The notes below the pieces were generated by a model. The model saw only the letters and a list, made by a program, of their open reading frames with translations. It had not been told where the DNA came from and searched no databases. A stretch of DNA of 64,000 nt from Candidatus Eremiobacterota bacterium (GTDB taxonomy: Bacteria > Vulcanimicrobiota > Vulcanimicrobiia > Vulcanimicrobiales > Vulcanimicrobiaceae): positions 841,300 to 905,299 of the forward strand of contig JAFAYE010000001.1 of the NCBI GenBank assembly GCA_019240525.1, in the 5' to 3' direction. The position numbers and the translations under genes are program-made. Shown piece by piece: positions 6,821 to 30,011 of the stretch. The stretch's first letter is position 1, and each line of letters begins with the position of its first letter.

Positions 6821-6973
6821 TTGTCCTTCTAATCCTTCCAACGTGGCTGACGGTGTTTCTGACCTTTCTGCCCCGCTTTGCCTTACCCCCTGGCTTGGCG
6901 TCGGGGCGACGCCTTCATAGGCCACTCCCCCCAAGAGACCCAAGAAACCCCAAGAGCCAAGAGAGCGGGAGAA

Positions 6974-7005
6974 AGGCGCGCCTACGAACAAGATTAGGCG
7001 CACCT
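6974..7005. promoter_or_regulatory. Direct repeat of an AGGCGCRCCT palindrome before the oxidase-permease gene
   Basis: AGGCGCGCCT (6974-6983, a perfect 10-bp palindrome) recurs as AGGCGCACCT at 6996-7005, with a spacing of 22 bp centre to centre (two helical turns). It ends 3 bp before the ATG at 7009. Arrangement and position fit an operator for a dimeric metal-responsive regulator, but this is inference; no regulator is known. No clear Shine-Dalgarno sequence is seen at the usual distance from this ATG. Confidence 0.4.
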
Positions 7006-7008
7006 AAC

Positions 7009-8880
7009 ATGTGCCCTGTCTACCGTCTGTCCGCCCGCCTCGCGGGGCTTGTGCTGCTTCTCCTCGTCGCCTTGCCGATGCGCGTGCTCGCCGACGCCGA
7101 CGAGCCGGTTTCGCCAAACTCGACCAGCCTGGGGCTGCAGCCCCTCACCGGCGTTATTTCGCCGGCCACGCCGGCGCCGGGGGAGTCTACGGTATTTCAG
7201 CGGGCCGACGGCGCGTATCAAGCGATTCCCGCGGTTCGCGGCCGCACGAAGATCTTTCATATCGTGGAGCGCGCCGCGCCGTGGACGTTGCGTCCCGGCT
7301 TGACGGTCATGGCCAACACCTACAACGGCGTCGTTCCCGGACCGGTGTTGCTCGTCCATCAGGGTGACACTCTGGTGCTTGACTACACGAACGACGTGAC
7401 GACGCCGGATTCGATTCACATGCACGGCATCCATGGCATTTCCGATGCGATGGACGGCGTCGCGGGCATATCGCAGTCGCTCGTGCCTCGCAATGGCCGC
7501 TTTATCTATCGCTTCGTTGCCGATCAGCCCGGGACGTTTATCTACCACACGCACGATAATGAAGCGATGCTCGATTCGGGTTTGTACGGTGCGATTATCG
7601 TAGAGCCGGCGAATGCGCGGCCGGTCGAACGCGGGCTCGCGCATGACTTCCTCGAGATGATTTCGTCGTGGCAGATCCAGAGCGCCGCGGAAAACGAGTT
7701 CACGCTCAACGGTAAGGAATATCCGGCAACGCGTCCGCTCGACGTGCGTTCCGGCGAGCGCTTTCGCGTGCGCTGGGTGAATATTTCAGGCGAAGAGTTT
7801 CACACGATGCATACGCACGGGCACGATCAGCAGATCATTGCTCGCGACGCATCACCGGTAGATTACAACGATACCGAGGACACGGTGCTGCTGGGACCGG
7901 GACAGCGCGTCGACGTCGCAATCACCGCAAACGCGAAGCCGGGAACCTGGCTGGTCCATTGCCACGTCCTCGACCATATCGAGGACTCGGCGGGAATGCC
8001 CAGCGGCTTGATTACCGCGATTCATTACGCCGGTACGCCCAACATGATGACCGCGATGTATCGAGCAATGACGCCGGCATCCAAGCCGAGCGCGGGCGGC
8101 TTGAGCTTCGGAATGACCGTGGTGCTCGGGGCAATCGCCGGCTTCACGATCTTTCTCGGCTTGCCGATCGCGCGGGCGCGCCGGCTTTCGCCACAGACGG
8201 TCGCACTCCTCAATGCGCTTGCGATCGGGATTTTGCTCTATCTGGTCGTCGAGATCGCGCAAAACGCCATCGTTCCAATTTCGCAAGGATTGACCGCGTG
8301 GCGCTCGGGCGCGAGCCCGTTTCCGGTTGTATCGATCGTGGTCTTCGTTCTCGGCTTGCTCATTGGACTCGTCGGCCTGGGCAGTGCGGCGACGTACGTC
8401 ACTCGCCAAGCAGCGCAGCACGCCGAGAATCCCATCGTGCTCGCGGCATTAATCGCCATTGGAATCGGCGCGCATAATTTCGGCGAAGGATTGGCAATCG
8501 GCGCCTCGGCAGCGGCGGGCGCGACCGCCGTTGCCCTTGCGCTGATCGTCGGATTTGGGCTGCATAATGCGACCGAAGGGTTTGGCGTCGCCGCGCCACT
8601 GGTTGGGCGCGTCGTGCCGACGTGGGCACAGATCGGTCTCGCCGGTCTGGTCGCGGGGGGCCCTACGTTTATCGGCACGATCGTCGGCTACCGTTTTTAC
8701 TCGCCGACCCTCTCGATCTTTTTCCTCGCCATTGCCGTCGGCGCGTTGATCTTCGTGATCGGTGAGCTCTGGAGCGTCTTGCGGCGAAGCGGCCTCACCG
8801 GATTCGTGACCGCGACGATGTGCGCGGGTTTTCTGCTTGGACTGGCGACGGAGCTCTTTCTCGACATCAACGGCGGTTGA
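7009..8880 (+). CDS. Multicopper oxidase fused to a ZIP-family metal permease
   Basis: A 623-aa protein with a signal peptide (about 1-30) and two cupredoxin domains (about 75-205 and 210-345). All copper-site signatures are present: HMHG (H137, H139), HTHD (H180, H182), HTMHTHGH (H265, H268, H270) and HCHVLDHIEDSAGM (H317, C318, H319, H323, M330), so T1, T2 and T3 sites look complete. From about 365 there are seven or eight membrane segments. Two ZIP signatures lie in adjacent helices: AHNFGEGLAIG (H489, E493) and HNATEGFGVAAP (H519, E523). The oxidase would sit outside the membrane, joined to a Zn/Fe/Mn-type permease. The start at 7009 gives a good signal peptide; the frame is open upstream to 6853. 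An oxidation-coupled metal uptake or detoxification role is inference. Confidence 0.88.
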   Translation: MCPVYRLSARLAGLVLLLLVALPMRVLADADEPVSPNSTSLGLQPLTGVISPATPAPGESTVFQRADGAYQAIPAVRGRTKIFHIVERAAPWTLRPGLTVMANTYNGVVPGPVLLVHQGDTLVLDYTNDVTTPDSIHMHGIHGISDAMDGVAGISQSLVPRNGRFIYRFVADQPGTFIYHTHDNEAMLDSGLYGAIIVEPANARPVERGLAHDFLEMISSWQIQSAAENEFTLNGKEYPATRPLDVRSGERFRVRWVNISGEEFHTMHTHGHDQQIIARDASPVDYNDTEDTVLLGPGQRVDVAITANAKPGTWLVHCHVLDHIEDSAGMPSGLITAIHYAGTPNMMTAMYRAMTPASKPSAGGLSFGMTVVLGAIAGFTIFLGLPIARARRLSPQTVALLNALAIGILLYLVVEIAQNAIVPISQGLTAWRSGASPFPVVSIVVFVLGLLIGLVGLGSAATYVTRQAAQHAENPIVLAALIAIGIGAHNFGEGLAIGASAAAGATAVALALIVGFGLHNATEGFGVAAPLVGRVVPTWAQIGLAGLVAGGPTFIGTIVGYRFYSPTLSIFFLAIAVGALIFVIGELWSVLRRSGLTGFVTATMCAGFLLGLATELFLDINGG

Positions 8881-12052: not shown

Positions 12053-14278
<2,226 letters not shown>

Positions 14279-14305
14279 CTAATTCTCCGATGTCCTAGTG
14301 AAAAT

Positions 14306-14316
14306 GAATGTCATTC
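14306..14316. promoter_or_regulatory. Palindrome between katG and the Fur-family gene
   Basis: GAATGTCATTC is a perfect 5+1+5 inverted repeat in the short divergent region. The next-but-one positions also pair (A at 14304 with T at 14318), giving an A/T-rich symmetric site. Position between two divergent peroxide-response genes suggests an operator for the Fur/PerR-type product. The sequence does not match the Bacillus PerR box exactly, so this is inference. Confidence 0.45.
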
Positions 14317-14342
14317 TTAGGAAGACGGGAATACTGCCGGAC

Positions 14343-14765
14343 ATGGCCTCCTCCCTGCAGCCGTCGTTGCCGAAGAATTACGCGCTCATCTACGACATCG
14401 TCAAAAAGAGCGGCGTCGGGTGCCATCTCACCTCCGCGGAGATTTACGGAAAGGCGCTCGAGCGGCGCCCCGGCATCGGATTTTCCACCGTCTATCGCGG
14501 GCTTGCGCGCTTGCGCGATCTGGGTCTGGTCTCCGAGCTCAGCGTGCCCGGCGCCGACGCCGCGACCTATGAGCCCTCGGGAAAGCCTCACGCGCACTTT
14601 CGTTGCAGCGAATGCGGCGAGATCGAAGACGTCGCTTTTGCGATTCCGTCACGGACGATTCACGCGCTCGCGAGTCAAAACGGCTTTAAAATCGACAGCG
14701 AACGCGTGACCTTCATCGGCCGCTGCTCGGCCTGTGCGCGGCGATCGCGCTCTAAGGCGGATTGA
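14343..14765 (+). CDS. Fur-family regulator (PerR-like)
   Basis: A 140-aa protein with an N-terminal winged helix (TSAEIYGKALERRPGIGFST VYRGLARL region) and a C-terminal dimer/metal domain with KPHAHFRCSECGEIEDV and GRCSACAR. These supply the sensor His/Asp ligands and the two CxxC pairs of the structural zinc site. The frame extends to GTG at 14298 and ATG at 14304, but those starts would run through the palindrome at 14306-14316 and leave only about 22-28 bp to katG. The ATG at 14343 leaves room for a shared promoter. Divergence from katG makes peroxide-sensing repression of katG the likely role. Confidence 0.85.
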   Translation: MASSLQPSLPKNYALIYDIVKKSGVGCHLTSAEIYGKALERRPGIGFSTVYRGLARLRDLGLVSELSVPGADAATYEPSGKPHAHFRCSECGEIEDVAFAIPSRTIHALASQNGFKIDSERVTFIGRCSACARRSRSKAD

Positions 14766-25836: not shown

Positions 25837-26286
25837 ATGCCCTACCTGCGCATTACCTGTCCCGAAACGTCGGCGCAACGGCGCCGCGCCATTGCCGCCC
25901 GCCTCACCGATGCCGTGAATGACATCTTTTGGAATCCACGCAGCGGTCTCTCGCGCGACGACCTGCGAGAACGGACGACCGTGCATTTCTTGCCGTATGG
26001 ACCAGAAACGCTCTTCATCGGCGGCCGAATACCCGCGGAACGAGCCGCGCCCGATGTCACGGTGGAGCTCTCGGATTGGTCGATGCCCGTGCGAATGCAG
26101 CGCCGCATCGCTCGCGAATTAACGCCGATCCTCGCCCGACTGTTCGACGTGATTCCAGGGGATGAGGACAACGTCAACCTTCGCTTTCACTCATATCGGC
26201 CGACCGATTTCGCGGTAGGCGGCCGGCTGCTATCGGATATCGTTCCCGCGGTTCCACGCATATTGAAGCGCGTACTCTCGCGCTGA
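25837..26286 (+). CDS. Tautomerase-superfamily protein
   Basis: A 149-aa protein starting Met-Pro (MPYLRITCP), so processing would expose the catalytic N-terminal proline of the tautomerase family. It has two beta-alpha-beta halves (residues 1-60 and about 75-135; the second begins PDVTVELSDWSM). Length and fused-repeat layout match cis-3-chloroacrylic acid dehalogenase-like members. Arginines follow in both halves. The substrate cannot be assigned. Its last 57 bp overlap the 3' end of the convergent phosphatase gene, an unusually long overlap. Confidence 0.75.
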   Translation: MPYLRITCPETSAQRRRAIAARLTDAVNDIFWNPRSGLSRDDLRERTTVHFLPYGPETLFIGGRIPAERAAPDVTVELSDWSMPVRMQRRIARELTPILARLFDVIPGDEDNVNLRFHSYRPTDFAVGGRLLSDIVPAVPRILKRVLSR

Positions 26287-28083
26287 CTGCGTCGTGTCTT
26301 CTTCGTCAAACGCAGGTGCGTAACGCCGGGCCGCAACCTTGAGGACCGCGCGCGCTTGGCTGCCGCCACCCGGGTACGGCGCGATTTCAAAAGCATCCGT
26401 CAACGTGGAAGTGACGTAGAGCCCGCGACCCGACTCGCTGAAAGGGTCGGCCGGCAAACCGGTCACGTGCGAGAATCCGTGGCCCCGATCAAACACGTGC
26501 AGAACGGGCGCCGACATGCTCCAATCCACGACTATTTCGATGGGGCCGGGCGCATTGCGGACGGCATTTCCGACCAATTCGGTCAGCACTATTTCGGCAT
26601 CGGCTCGTTCTTGCGATGTCGCGCCTCGGTCGTGAAGCGCATCAAGGACTTCTTCGCGCACGCGACCGGCGGCGGCGACGTCGTCGGTGTTGAAGCGCCA
26701 GCGATAGGGTGGCGTGCTGAATTGCTCGGGAAGGCCATCGACGTTAACCACAAGCATTGCGATGTCGTCGCGTGGCGGAATGTCTCCGAGGAAAGCTGCT
26801 TGCAGCGCCCTTGCCGGAAACTGTGCGGCTCTAAACGCCCCGTCGGCGACGAGATTCCTTAAGCGAAATTCTCCCTGGAGCGGGTCGTGCTGAAACTCGG
26901 TGAGACCGTCGGTGTAAAGCACGAGCGACGAGCCGTCGGGAATAGGAACGGTTTGCGGAGCTGGGCCGCGACCCATACGAAGTCCGAGCGGCATGCCGCG
27001 ATCGGATAGCTCGGCAAGATTGCCGTCCGGATAGCGCAGCAATGCTGGCGGATGCCCCGCCGAGGCATAACTGAGGGTCTTTCCGATTGGATCGATGATA
27101 CCGACGAACGCTGTGACGAAGCCGTTGGGCTCGCTCAGATGCAGCGCCCGTCCCGCGGCATCCAGCATCAAGGTCGGGTTGGCGTGCACTTGTGCGATCC
27201 CGCGAATCACTTGACGCATGTTGCCCATGGTGACCGCGGCGTCGAGACCGCTTCCGGCGACGTCGCCAATCGACACCATTGCACGGCCATCGGTTAGTCG
27301 CATCGCGTCGTACCAGTCGCCGCCGATCATCGCCTCGCTTTTTCCCGGCGAATAGACTGCATCGAACGACAAACCGGGAACGTTCGGTAGCGAGCGGGGT
27401 AGTGACGCGTCTTGAAACGCTTGCGCGATGCGGTGCTCGTGCTCCCACCGCGACGTGCCCTCTTCGTTTAACCGGTTCAGCGTCGCCGCGGTCTGCTGCA
27501 GTGCTTCGTTAACTTCATCTTTCGCACGCGCCGTTTCTTCTAACTGCAGCACCGACCGTTCGTATTGCCGAGTGCGAGAATTCTCCGTGAGCAGCGCATC
27601 CCCGAGCACTTGAAGCAGCTCGCCGTTTAAGAGCAGCCGGCCGCGAGGCACTGGCTTCTGCTCTCGGGCAACGTTCCAGAGCCGTTCGAAACGAATGCCC
27701 GCATCGCGCGCCAAGCGCTGAACTTCCGAGAGCTGCGAGAAATCGACGAAAGCGTAGCCGCCGACCGCGGCGCCGACGATCGTTCCGTCGAGCACGAGCG
27801 ACGTGCCAACGACCGATAAACCATACGATTCTGCGACCACGACTGCTTGACGGTCTTCGCTTTGCGCCAGGCAGCGGCGCGCGCACTCCTCGAAGAGGCC
27901 GGGCTCATAACCTGATTCGGCTTCAAAGAGCGCAAAAAGCGGCGTCGAATGAATCGGCCCGAAGACGAGCTTTCCCTCGGTGTCAAAAAGCTTCACGGTT
28001 AAGTGGCACGCGCTGCCGTAACTTTTTAAGGCCCGCTCCCATAGAACGGAACCAAACAGCAGTTTAGTCTTCGTCAGCGTCAT
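26230..28083 (-). CDS. PocR sensor-SpoIIE phosphatase-RsbW kinase signalling protein
   Basis: A 617-aa cytoplasmic regulator. A PocR ligand-binding domain lies at about 5-160, with its Cys/His-rich core (LFEECARRCLAQ). A coiled-coil follows at about 185-225. The PP2C/SpoIIE Ser phosphatase at about 240-440 has metal Asp residues in MIGGDWYDAM and SIGDVAGSGLDAA and PPRDDIAMLVV at the end. The RsbW-type GHKL ATPase at about 465-600 has N box VLTELVGNAVRNAP, G1 DRGHGF and G2 SGRGLYVTSTL. It thus combines both opposing activities of a partner-switching module. The start at 28083 overlaps the KaiC-like gene by 20 bp. Confidence 0.9.
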   Translation of the reverse strand: MTLTKTKLLFGSVLWERALKSYGSACHLTVKLFDTEGKLVFGPIHSTPLFALFEAESGYEPGLFEECARRCLAQSEDRQAVVVAESYGLSVVGTSLVLDGTIVGAAVGGYAFVDFSQLSEVQRLARDAGIRFERLWNVAREQKPVPRGRLLLNGELLQVLGDALLTENSRTRQYERSVLQLEETARAKDEVNEALQQTAATLNRLNEEGTSRWEHEHRIAQAFQDASLPRSLPNVPGLSFDAVYSPGKSEAMIGGDWYDAMRLTDGRAMVSIGDVAGSGLDAAVTMGNMRQVIRGIAQVHANPTLMLDAAGRALHLSEPNGFVTAFVGIIDPIGKTLSYASAGHPPALLRYPDGNLAELSDRGMPLGLRMGRGPAPQTVPIPDGSSLVLYTDGLTEFQHDPLQGEFRLRNLVADGAFRAAQFPARALQAAFLGDIPPRDDIAMLVVNVDGLPEQFSTPPYRWRFNTDDVAAAGRVREEVLDALHDRGATSQERADAEIVLTELVGNAVRNAPGPIEIVVDWSMSAPVLHVFDRGHGFSHVTGLPADPFSESGRGLYVTSTLTDAFEIAPYPGGGSQARAVLKVAARRYAPAFDEEDTTQSAREYALQYAWNRGNDIR

Positions 28084-29599
28084 CGGCGCGCAACAGCGCT
28101 TCTAGGCCGGCGCGCCGCGTCGGGGCGCGCGATATCAGGCCGGCAAATGTAGAGAAGGGTGCCTTGGACGGAGGAATCACGCGCGGCAGCACGCGCATGC
28201 CGTGGCCCTCGACGATTTCACATTCGTGCGTGATCCGGTCGACCGGGTTGGCCCGCATCTTTGCGACGGTGAGGCCGAGCCGGAAGCAGTCGCCAAGCTC
28301 GATCCAATTCATGAGCAGAATGTTGTCGACGAGCGAGCTCATCGCGAACTCGCCCATCATCGAGGCCATTCCCAACATCTCGGGATTTTCGTGATTGTAG
28401 ACGGCCGCGATTTGCGATTCTTTCATTAGCGCCGTCAGGGCGTGGAAGAAGTCGCGAAAGATACGGCCATTCGTGCCAAGCGCCGATCCGTAAGTGGAAA
28501 GGCTGTCGATGACGACACGCCGCGGTTTGAACTCGCGCACCAATTGCTCGATGTGGTAGAAGTGCACGTCCACTTCGATTTCCTGCGGCGGCTCGTACTC
28601 CACGTGCACGAAACCGCTTTTGATCGCTCCGTCGAGGTCGATGCCGACGCTGGAAGCGTTGCGCAAAATTTGCGGTACCTGCTCGTCGAGGCTGAGCATC
28701 AAACTGTGCTCGCCGCACCGCGCGCCCTCCGCCATGTATTGCAGGGCCATCACGCTCTTGCCGACACCCGAGATTCCGGCGACAACGGTCGTACTGCCGC
28801 TGAAATATCCTCCGTTCAAGAGACCATCGAGACCGGGAATCCCCGACGTAACGCGCGTTGACGGATCGAAGGCTGCGGCATAATCGCGCCCCTTGCGCGG
28901 GGCCTGGACGCGGCGATAGACCCGTATCCCCTCGCCGTCGAGAATCCGGATCGTGTGGCGGCCCATTCGAAAATCCTGTCCTCGAGATTTCACGATCTCG
29001 ATCGACCGGCTTACGGCGCGCTGCGCTTCCTCGACGCGCAAGCGAATTACCGTATCGGCAATGGACTCCTCGGCGAGGGAGGGTTCGGAACCGTTGCCCC
29101 CGTTCAACGATGCTTCGACTGCGAGAATGGCCGTGAGATCCTCGCGCTGCAGTCCTTCGGTGAGCACGTGAAACGTGGAACGGGTTTCGGGCGTCCCATC
29201 GTTACCGACGAGTCTACCGACGCCGTCGATGAAGATGCGCCGGGCACCGATCTCGGCGGCTTCGGCGAGCAGAACGCTGTCGGCTTGCTGTAATTCCTGG
29301 CGCAAGACTTCACGCGTCGTAAAAATAATTTTCAGCCGGCCATTCCGTTCGAGCTCCTCGAGATTCCAGCCGAACTGCAAAGCGTCGCGCATAAGCTTAT
29401 GCGGCGAGACCTCGAAGAGCACGATGATGCCGGGTTCGCCAAACTCACTGGCACCTCGATAGACGAACTCGACGCCGATGGTTGTCTTTCCGGTGCCGAT
29501 CGCGCCTTCGACCAGGATCACGTTGCCGCGAGGGATACCGCCAGGCAAAATCTCGTCCAATCCGGCGATGCCCGTCTTGATCAGATCAGCCGATTGCAC
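28064..29599 (-). CDS. Two-domain KaiC-like ATPase
   Basis: A 511-aa protein with two RecA/KaiC repeats. Walker A motifs are GAIGTGKTT (about 32-40) and GISGVGKSV (about 275-283); Walker B motifs are ARRIFIDGV and RRVVIDSL. The second domain keeps the KaiC C-terminal region (AMSSLVDNILLMNWIELGD ... VAKMRANPVD). The adjacent Ser-Ser at 421-422 aligns with the KaiC autophosphorylation pair Ser431/Thr432. Length is like cyanobacterial KaiC. I start at GTG 29599, with GAGGTGG upstream; GTG 29608 is the alternative. It sits between a winged-helix gene and the PocR-SpoIIE-RsbW gene, overlapping both. No kaiA or kaiB is visible, so a clock role is not implied. Confidence 0.88.
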   Translation of the reverse strand: MQSADLIKTGIAGLDEILPGGIPRGNVILVEGAIGTGKTTIGVEFVYRGASEFGEPGIIVLFEVSPHKLMRDALQFGWNLEELERNGRLKIIFTTREVLRQELQQADSVLLAEAAEIGARRIFIDGVGRLVGNDGTPETRSTFHVLTEGLQREDLTAILAVEASLNGGNGSEPSLAEESIADTVIRLRVEEAQRAVSRSIEIVKSRGQDFRMGRHTIRILDGEGIRVYRRVQAPRKGRDYAAAFDPSTRVTSGIPGLDGLLNGGYFSGSTTVVAGISGVGKSVMALQYMAEGARCGEHSLMLSLDEQVPQILRNASSVGIDLDGAIKSGFVHVEYEPPQEIEVDVHFYHIEQLVREFKPRRVVIDSLSTYGSALGTNGRIFRDFFHALTALMKESQIAAVYNHENPEMLGMASMMGEFAMSSLVDNILLMNWIELGDCFRLGLTVAKMRANPVDRITHECEIVEGHGMRVLPRVIPPSKAPFSTFAGLISRAPTRRAGLEALLRADDADED

Positions 29600-30011
29600 G
29601 CAGCCCACCTCGCTTTTGAAGATGGCGATGATGAAAAGCCCGAGGCTGCCGAGAAAGAGTCCCTAAGATTCGTTGCCGCCCTGACCGCGTTGATGCGATG
29701 TCCAAGAGCGTCGTCAACGCGCGTTCTCGCGGACCTTCGGCCGTCAGAAGATATAAGCGCGCAGCATGGCTCGGGTTCTGTTTACGCTGGACAAGGCCGA
29801 CCTCGATGAACGCGTCGATTGCCGTAGCGACCGCTCCCATCTCGTATCCCACCATCGCCGCAAGCTTCTCGTTCGTGAGTAGCGTCCGTGGATGTCTGCG
29901 CAGAAACAAGAGCAGATCGAGCTCGCATGGAGTCTTGAAGGCGTCCGCATCCGCGAGCAAGCGCTTGATGTCGCTGTCTTTGAAAGGATCTGTCGGAGGG
30001 TCGCTGCTCAT
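29586..30011 (-). CDS. Winged-helix regulator opening the KaiC-like operon
   Basis: A 141-aa protein with a winged helix-turn-helix at about 30-110 (CELDLLLFLRRHPRTLLTNEK, MVGYEMGAVATAIDAFIEVG, then a LVQRKQNP wing). A basic tail is rich in Arg and His. The frame is open to 30266, but AGGAAC lies just before the ATG at 30011, and the upstream part has no family character. Its 3' end overlaps the KaiC-like start by 14 bp, so three genes (winged helix, KaiC-like, PocR-SpoIIE-RsbW) are coupled. It probably acts as transcription factor or adaptor of this pathway. Confidence 0.75.
   Translation of the reverse strand: MSSDPPTDPFKDSDIKRLLADADAFKTPCELDLLLFLRRHPRTLLTNEKLAAMVGYEMGAVATAIDAFIEVGLVQRKQNPSHAARLYLLTAEGPRERALTTLLDIASTRSGRQRILGTLSRQPRAFHHRHLQKRGGLRAIG

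Follow-up and report, generated by a model that had tools for sequence, protein, structure and literature searches.

Multicopper oxidases coupled to permeases

Fet3/Ftr1 of yeast is an iron-regulated system in which a three-domain multicopper oxidase (MCO) is coupled to a separate permease of the Ftr1 family, which is unrelated to ZIP. The protein described here likewise couples an MCO to a permease under what appears to be iron regulation, but its MCO has two domains, its permease is ZIP-like and both lie in one chain; because the permease is ZIP-like, it may work like Fet3/Ftr1 but is not Fet3/Ftr1. In ammonia-oxidising archaea, MCO1 and a ZIP protein are encoded by adjacent genes, for which a Fet3/Ftr1-like copper uptake has been proposed and which were moderately induced by copper limitation (PMC7785015). 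The genes of Nitrososphaera viennensis (NVIE_000600/000590; PMC7785015, PMC5817080, PMC5767755), compared here by their published description, resemble ours in that a two-domain MCO is genetically coupled to a ZIP-family permease, but they are two genes and the metal proposed is copper.

The gene at 7009-8880 (+) of a 64,000-nucleotide stretch from a Candidatus Eremiobacterota bacterium (contig JAFAYE010000001.1, positions 841,300 to 905,299; hereafter the window) encodes an MCO and a ZIP domain in a single polypeptide. While the two-gene arrangement was known already, no paper on a single-chain MCO-ZIP protein was found among the openly licensed papers searched. An earlier, sequence-only reading of this DNA had known of no description of the architecture, which agrees with this search for the single chain but not for the coupling as such, the gene pair being published and pairs occurring in six phyla (see below). 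We propose, with a probability of about 0.5, that the protein is a single-chain oxidase-permease that serves iron acquisition and whose expression would be repressed by iron.

One uninterrupted frame across the class

The frame at 7009-8880 is free of stop codons and encodes 623 amino acids plus a stop. From the N- to the C-terminus it comprises a signal peptide, a two-domain MCO, a Met-rich linker and an eight-helix ZIP domain; the signal peptide-like hydrophobic N-terminus (7009-7095, aa 1-29; this and all following protein features on the + strand) is evident from hydropathy and is a helix in the structural model. The oxidase and the ZIP domain thus lie in one open frame, as the sequence-only reading had stated, and the same frame recurs in independent genomes. 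In about 70 of 117 genomes of the class of uncultured soil bacteria to which the window belongs (Ca. Eremiobacterota), several of them few-contig assemblies, a single stop-free frame spans the oxidase-ZIP junction, with identities of 45-82% (down to 45% between families). This ZIP domain was found in 75 of the 117 genomes, always in the fused frame except at contig ends and in a few broken copies, while in other families of the phylum the oxidase half alone was matched, weakly (34-37%).

The relatives compared are mostly metagenome-assembled genomes, which could speak for a sequencing or gene-calling artefact that fused two genes, but the uninterrupted frame in about 70 genomes, its presence in few-contig assemblies and its conservation down to 45% identity refute this; we reject an artefact or chance join of two genes, the likelihood of which is practically nil. 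The stop codon or frameshift between the domains that the sequence-only reading had named as a refutation was not borne out in these genomes. A few copies are interrupted: one carries a single in-frame TAG (G116, contig C320), another is split inside the oxidase (G112, contig C22), and these and a third (G119, contig C97), with in-frame stops or apparent frameshifts, reflect either mistakes of assembly or the decay of the gene within a single genus.

The gene context in the window holds nothing metal-specific near the fusion gene. Among the upstream neighbours are genes for a two-component system and an FAD-binding protein; those on the other side include genes for a phosphoesterase, an aldo-keto reductase and a regulator of the Fur family. 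The gene of this regulator (14298-14765, +) is divergent from a catalase-peroxidase-like gene (KatG, read from the sequence; 12053-14275, -), and the two are perhaps a PerR-type pair. Elsewhere in the window, a KaiC-like double ATPase (28064-29608, -) adjoins a SpoIIE-type phosphatase with a histidine-kinase-like ATPase domain (26230-28083, -).

The oxidase half

The two cupredoxin domains were matched by Pfam Cu-oxidase_3 (7297-7614, aa 97-202; whole-protein E 2.9e-29) and Cu-oxidase_2 (7687-7983, aa 227-325; E 1.2e-27). All the copper motifs HxH, HxxHxH and HCHxxxH reported by the sequence-only reading are present (HMH at aa 137-139, HTH at 180-182, HTMHTH at 265-270 and HCHVLDH at 317-323), as are the ZIP signatures HNFGEG (489-494) and HNATEG (519-524). 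Domain 1 contributes His137, His139, His180 and His182 of the trinuclear site, and its HTH motif is without a T1 Cys, while domain 2, with its HCHxxxH motif, contributes His268, His270, His317 and His319 together with the T1 ligands His265, Cys318 and His323, so that the T1 ligands are confined to the C-terminal domain. When 43 distinct fusion sequences were aligned, these 11 copper-ligand positions were invariant in 43/43, as were six ZIP positions; the T1 axial Met330 was variable (Met in 26/43).

By the published scheme, in which type B MCOs have the T1 site in the C-terminal domain and form a homotrimer with a trinuclear site common to two protomers (PMC13151041), we assign the oxidase on its sequence to the type B two-domain MCOs. 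Like SLAC and the Cellvibrio CjMCO (PMC13151041), it has T1 in domain 2 only and eight trinuclear-site His, but these characterised type B enzymes are soluble and lack the transporter domain that the fusion has. Its best PDB matches are two-domain laccases; in 2zwn and 3g5w, the solved structures nearest to it in sequence, the T1 Cys belongs to domain 1, unlike in the fusion. The claim of a complete laccase therefore needs qualification: all copper motifs are there, but because type B enzymes trimerise to complete the trinuclear site, the oxidase half is of the trimer-forming kind and not a complete stand-alone laccase.

Oxidation of phenols has been described for a type B two-domain MCO (PMC13151041), and it could be argued that the substrate of the oxidase is an organic or some other compound, the ZIP domain being an ordinary zinc importer and the fusion merely anchoring the oxidase in the membrane. 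In line with anchoring, the genome G025 encodes the same oxidase (L065:3794-5119; 62% identity) with a single membrane anchor in place of the ZIP domain. This explanation seems rather improbable to us, in view of the invariance of the six ZIP metal-motif residues, the repeated joining of MCO and ZIP, and a DtxR-type operator (see below), which would be out of place for a gene controlled by zinc (Zur) or for a laccase. The operator likewise speaks against zinc import by a chain whose laccase has an unrelated task.

The permease half and its topology

The membrane domain (8107-8868, aa 367-620) was recognised as an eight-helix ZIP fold by Pfam, NCBIfam, structural models and hydropathy. Pfam Zip matched aa 470-582 (E 1.3e-6), with scores of 28.3 to 28.9 bits that fall below the curated cut-off of 35.1, as do those of the stand-alone relatives L075 and L078 (34.1 and 33.4 bits); NCBIfam ZupT matched the ZIP part alone with an E of 7e-9, and a profile search of PDB sequences also found BbZIP (3e-5). 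The whole-protein AlphaFold model is modest (pLDDT 69), with the eight ZIP helices visible, and because the matches listed in its fold search were all MCO-type proteins, the ZIP domain was folded alone. Although the resulting model is of low confidence (pLDDT 62), its top seven PDB matches were all BbZIP with a probability of 1.00, the next best being 0.30. These matches and both helix motifs agree with the earlier identification of the membrane part as ZIP; because the Pfam score is under the cut-off, we call it, on sequence and model, a divergent ZIP-fold domain.

The fusion has in common with BbZIP (PDB 7z6m, 5tsa, 8ght) and E. coli ZupT the eight-helix fold, the HNxxEG motif of helix 4 and a metal motif in helix 5, and differs in the HNATEG sequence of helix 5, in a Thr for the helix-6 Glu and in the attached N-terminal oxidase. 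In the metal motifs of helix 4 (HNFGE; 8473-8487, aa 489-493) and helix 5 (HNATE; 8563-8577, aa 519-523), the residues H489, N490, E493, H519, N520 and E523 were invariant in 43/43. The equally invariant Thr553 aligns with the helix-6 Glu of BbZIP, which we take to be a metal ligand of its binuclear centre. Mean Lys plus Arg was 7.8 in inside loops vs 2.5 in outside loops, which fits eight helices with the N-terminus outside; the oxidase is therefore predicted to lie on the outer face.

Between the two halves, the linker (8038-8106, aa 344-366) is about six-fold enriched in Met (12.4% vs 2.1% elsewhere, 43 sequences). It is a possible Cu(I) site, which an iron model leaves unexplained.

An iron-repressor-type operator

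A palindrome of the IdeR/DtxR type, TTAGG-N4-CCTAA (TTAGGCGCACCTAA, 6994-7007), ends one base ahead of the ATG of the fusion gene, and a weaker copy (AAAGGCGCGCCTAC, 6972-6985) lies 22 bp before it; a tandem weaker copy 22-23 bp off is also present in many relatives from the genus, and often in a sister family (f3). The palindrome occurs once in the 2.8-Mb window genome, at the fusion start (reversed control, 5 occurrences). Across the window and 23 related loci (310 kb), there were 22 exact copies and 22/22 stood at the fusion start; among 30 genome-derived fusion loci of families f1 and f2, the box was exact in about 24 and had at most one mismatch in 29. The published IdeR box is the 19-bp TTAGGTTAGSCTAACCTAA (PMC10317159), and the fusion box fits its positions 1-14; the window does not contain the complete 19-bp sequence. 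A wider regulon scan at 2 mismatches gave background only (254 sites vs 870 in the reversed control).

In family f3, the fusion gene forms an operon with a DtxR-family gene that it abuts or overlaps. The box precedes this operon in 11/11 loci, with one mismatch or none. The f3 regulator has the domains Fe_dep_repress, Fe_dep_repr_C and FeoA. According to a previous study, Met10 and Cys102 are iron-sensor ligands and Asp and Glu manganese-sensor ligands (PMC10317159), and the f3 regulator has the iron-type equivalents (EMYLK, ACRLEH). In the window lineage no regulator gene adjoins the fusion, but the window genome encodes a regulator of the iron type (EMYMK, ACILEH; about G000:C1:764.8-765.5 kb, minus strand) that is 45% identical to that of f3. 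Both stand beside an adenosine deaminase-like gene (confirmed by Pfam in f3, read from the sequence in the window genome), and this common neighbour supports their orthology. The second regulator of the window genome is of the manganese type and is joined to an NRAMP gene that has no box.

Other genes under the same operator

In most genera without the fusion, the box is found in front of a gene for an NRAMP importer (L149-L152, L174, L177). Of the 117 genomes of the class, 60 have only the fusion, 34 only the box-type NRAMP, 17 both and 6 neither, a complementarity with a Fisher p of 5e-11 when kinship among the genomes is ignored; three of these last six genomes belong to the genus and are < 70% complete.

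A third target of the box is a mono-haem protein of ~370 aa (containing IPLFAHQYGVTCEKCHSVIPHL), which is Cyc2-like in that it comes near the Cyc2 signature AxPxFAR[QK][TY], CxxCH, PxL, with His for Arg. Loci with this protein under the box include L154:3357-4469, L155, L157, L159, L163, L165 and others; it was not found in the window genome at the threshold used. It is possible that it is an iron-regulated outer-membrane cytochrome-porin in Eremiobacterota.

MCO and ZIP in other lineages

A plasmid search returned no record in which one place covered 80% of the fusion, but adjacent genes for an MCO and then a ZIP protein, often overlapping, were found in Bacillota, Actinomycetota, Deinococcota, Pseudomonadota, Cyanobacteriota and Halobacteria. 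We examined separate MCO-ZIP pairs from bacterial and haloarchaeal plasmids (L067, L069-L074, L181-L188). Like the fusion, they have a two-domain MCO directly upstream of ZIP, often with a DtxR/MntR-family regulator, which was near 7 of 15 pairs (in Rubrobacter, two Deinococcus, Arthrobacter, Haloprofundus, Salinigranum and Pseudosulfitobacter, the last annotated mntR). Unlike the fusion, the seven pairs that were aligned have a type C MCO (T1 in domain 1) and a ZIP protein of ~390 aa from another subfamily, which suggests that the MCO-ZIP association arose more than once. A single chain was found on a plasmid of Deinococcus sp. KNUC1210 (NZ_CP092195.1, L068:3554-5362), with a two-domain MCO whose T1 site is in domain 2, as in the fusion; however, ZIP comes first (39-276, MCO 331-574), the HCH motif of domain 2 has Gln in place of its first His, and ArsR, CDF and P-type ATPase genes adjoin. 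This ZIP-MCO fusion is independent of that of the class.

All four pair-linked regulators that were aligned are of the manganese type (Asp8/Glu99-like ligands). The importer that takes the place of the fusion, NRAMP, is often a Mn2+ carrier, and ZIP carriers take divalent ions. These findings would suit manganese or mixed Mn/Fe uptake, in which Mn2+ would enter through ZIP and the oxidase, instead of preparing the substrate, would clear away competing Fe2+ or Cu+ by oxidising them. Against this stand the iron-type Met and Cys ligands of the regulator linked to the fusion itself, the Cyc2-like protein under the same box, and the window genome's possession of a manganese-type regulator with its own NRAMP outside the box; we regard this alternative as unlikely.

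Copper handling was also considered, either as oxidation of Cu+ to Cu2+ followed by import of Cu2+ through ZIP, or as protection against copper. The proposal for the archaeal pair and its moderate induction at copper limitation (PMC7785015) point this way, as does the Met-rich linker. Two-domain MCOs with the T1 Cys in domain 2 were moreover found fused to a membrane domain of another kind, DUF4396 (L076:2942-4906, L077:3026-4870), and in Variovorax this fusion adjoins cueR and a heavy-metal ATPase and is apparently copper-related. The finding of an operator and a linked regulator of the iron-repressor family nevertheless weakens the reading of copper uptake; DtxR-type regulators can respond to several metals in vitro, but Cu2+ fails to activate IdeR (PMC10317159). 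Also against copper, NRAMP replaces the fusion, and none of the fusion neighbours scanned is a copper-regulator gene. Altogether we hold a role in copper handling to be improbable.

Proposed function

The sequence established one chain with intact copper sites, a ZIP fold and an operator of the iron-repressor type, which in genomes that lack the fusion stands before NRAMP. The sequence-only reading suggested that the protein could oxidise and import a metal, which the architecture supports, and left the metal open; because of the IdeR/DtxR-type box, the DtxR-type regulator and the replacement by NRAMP, iron is favoured, then manganese, and the evidence points away from copper. Import of iron or manganese, all readings together, is likely, whereas oxidation-coupled import of iron falls at or somewhat short of even odds.

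In the iron model, a Fe2+-sensing repressor of the DtxR family would shut the fusion gene off when iron is plentiful, and the protein would be made upon iron shortage. The oxidase would be held at the outside of the cytoplasmic membrane and would probably be trimeric, since this type of MCO completes its trinuclear copper site between neighbouring chains. There it would bind ferrous iron and oxidise it with O2, and the metal would be handed to the attached ZIP channel and moved inward, much as in Fet3/Ftr1, although here the permease is of an unrelated family and shares one polypeptide with the oxidase. Somewhat more tentatively, we picture a one-polypeptide ferroxidase-permease in which an iron-repressed type B MCO would oxidise Fe2+ in a trimeric head and feed it straight into the covalently joined ZIP channels; it would be the counterpart of Fet3/Ftr1 in bacteria and could replace NRAMP.

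The hand-over is the weakest step of the iron model, since the usual cargo of ZIP carriers is M2+. It would be paradoxical to oxidise Fe2+ first if Fe3+ were not channelled, and otherwise the oxidase would serve selectivity or protection. The low Pfam Zip score, the replacement of the helix-6 Glu by Thr and the variable axial Met also count against this model, as do the linker, which suggests Cu(I) handling, the multiple metals to which DtxR-type regulators can respond in vitro, the lack of a regulator gene beside the fusion in the window lineage, and the 17 genomes with both fusion and NRAMP.

The coupling of an oxidase to ZIP is a repeated one, seen as a gene pair, as an MCO-ZIP fusion and as a ZIP-MCO fusion. 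The question of why a cell should oxidise a metal before a divalent-ion carrier becomes testable in one protein, and the archaeal MCO1 and ZIP pair gets an alternative reading, iron or manganese vs copper or hydroxylamine (PMC7785015, PMC5767755). For type B two-domain MCOs, which are poorly understood, metal acquisition emerges as a likely physiological role.
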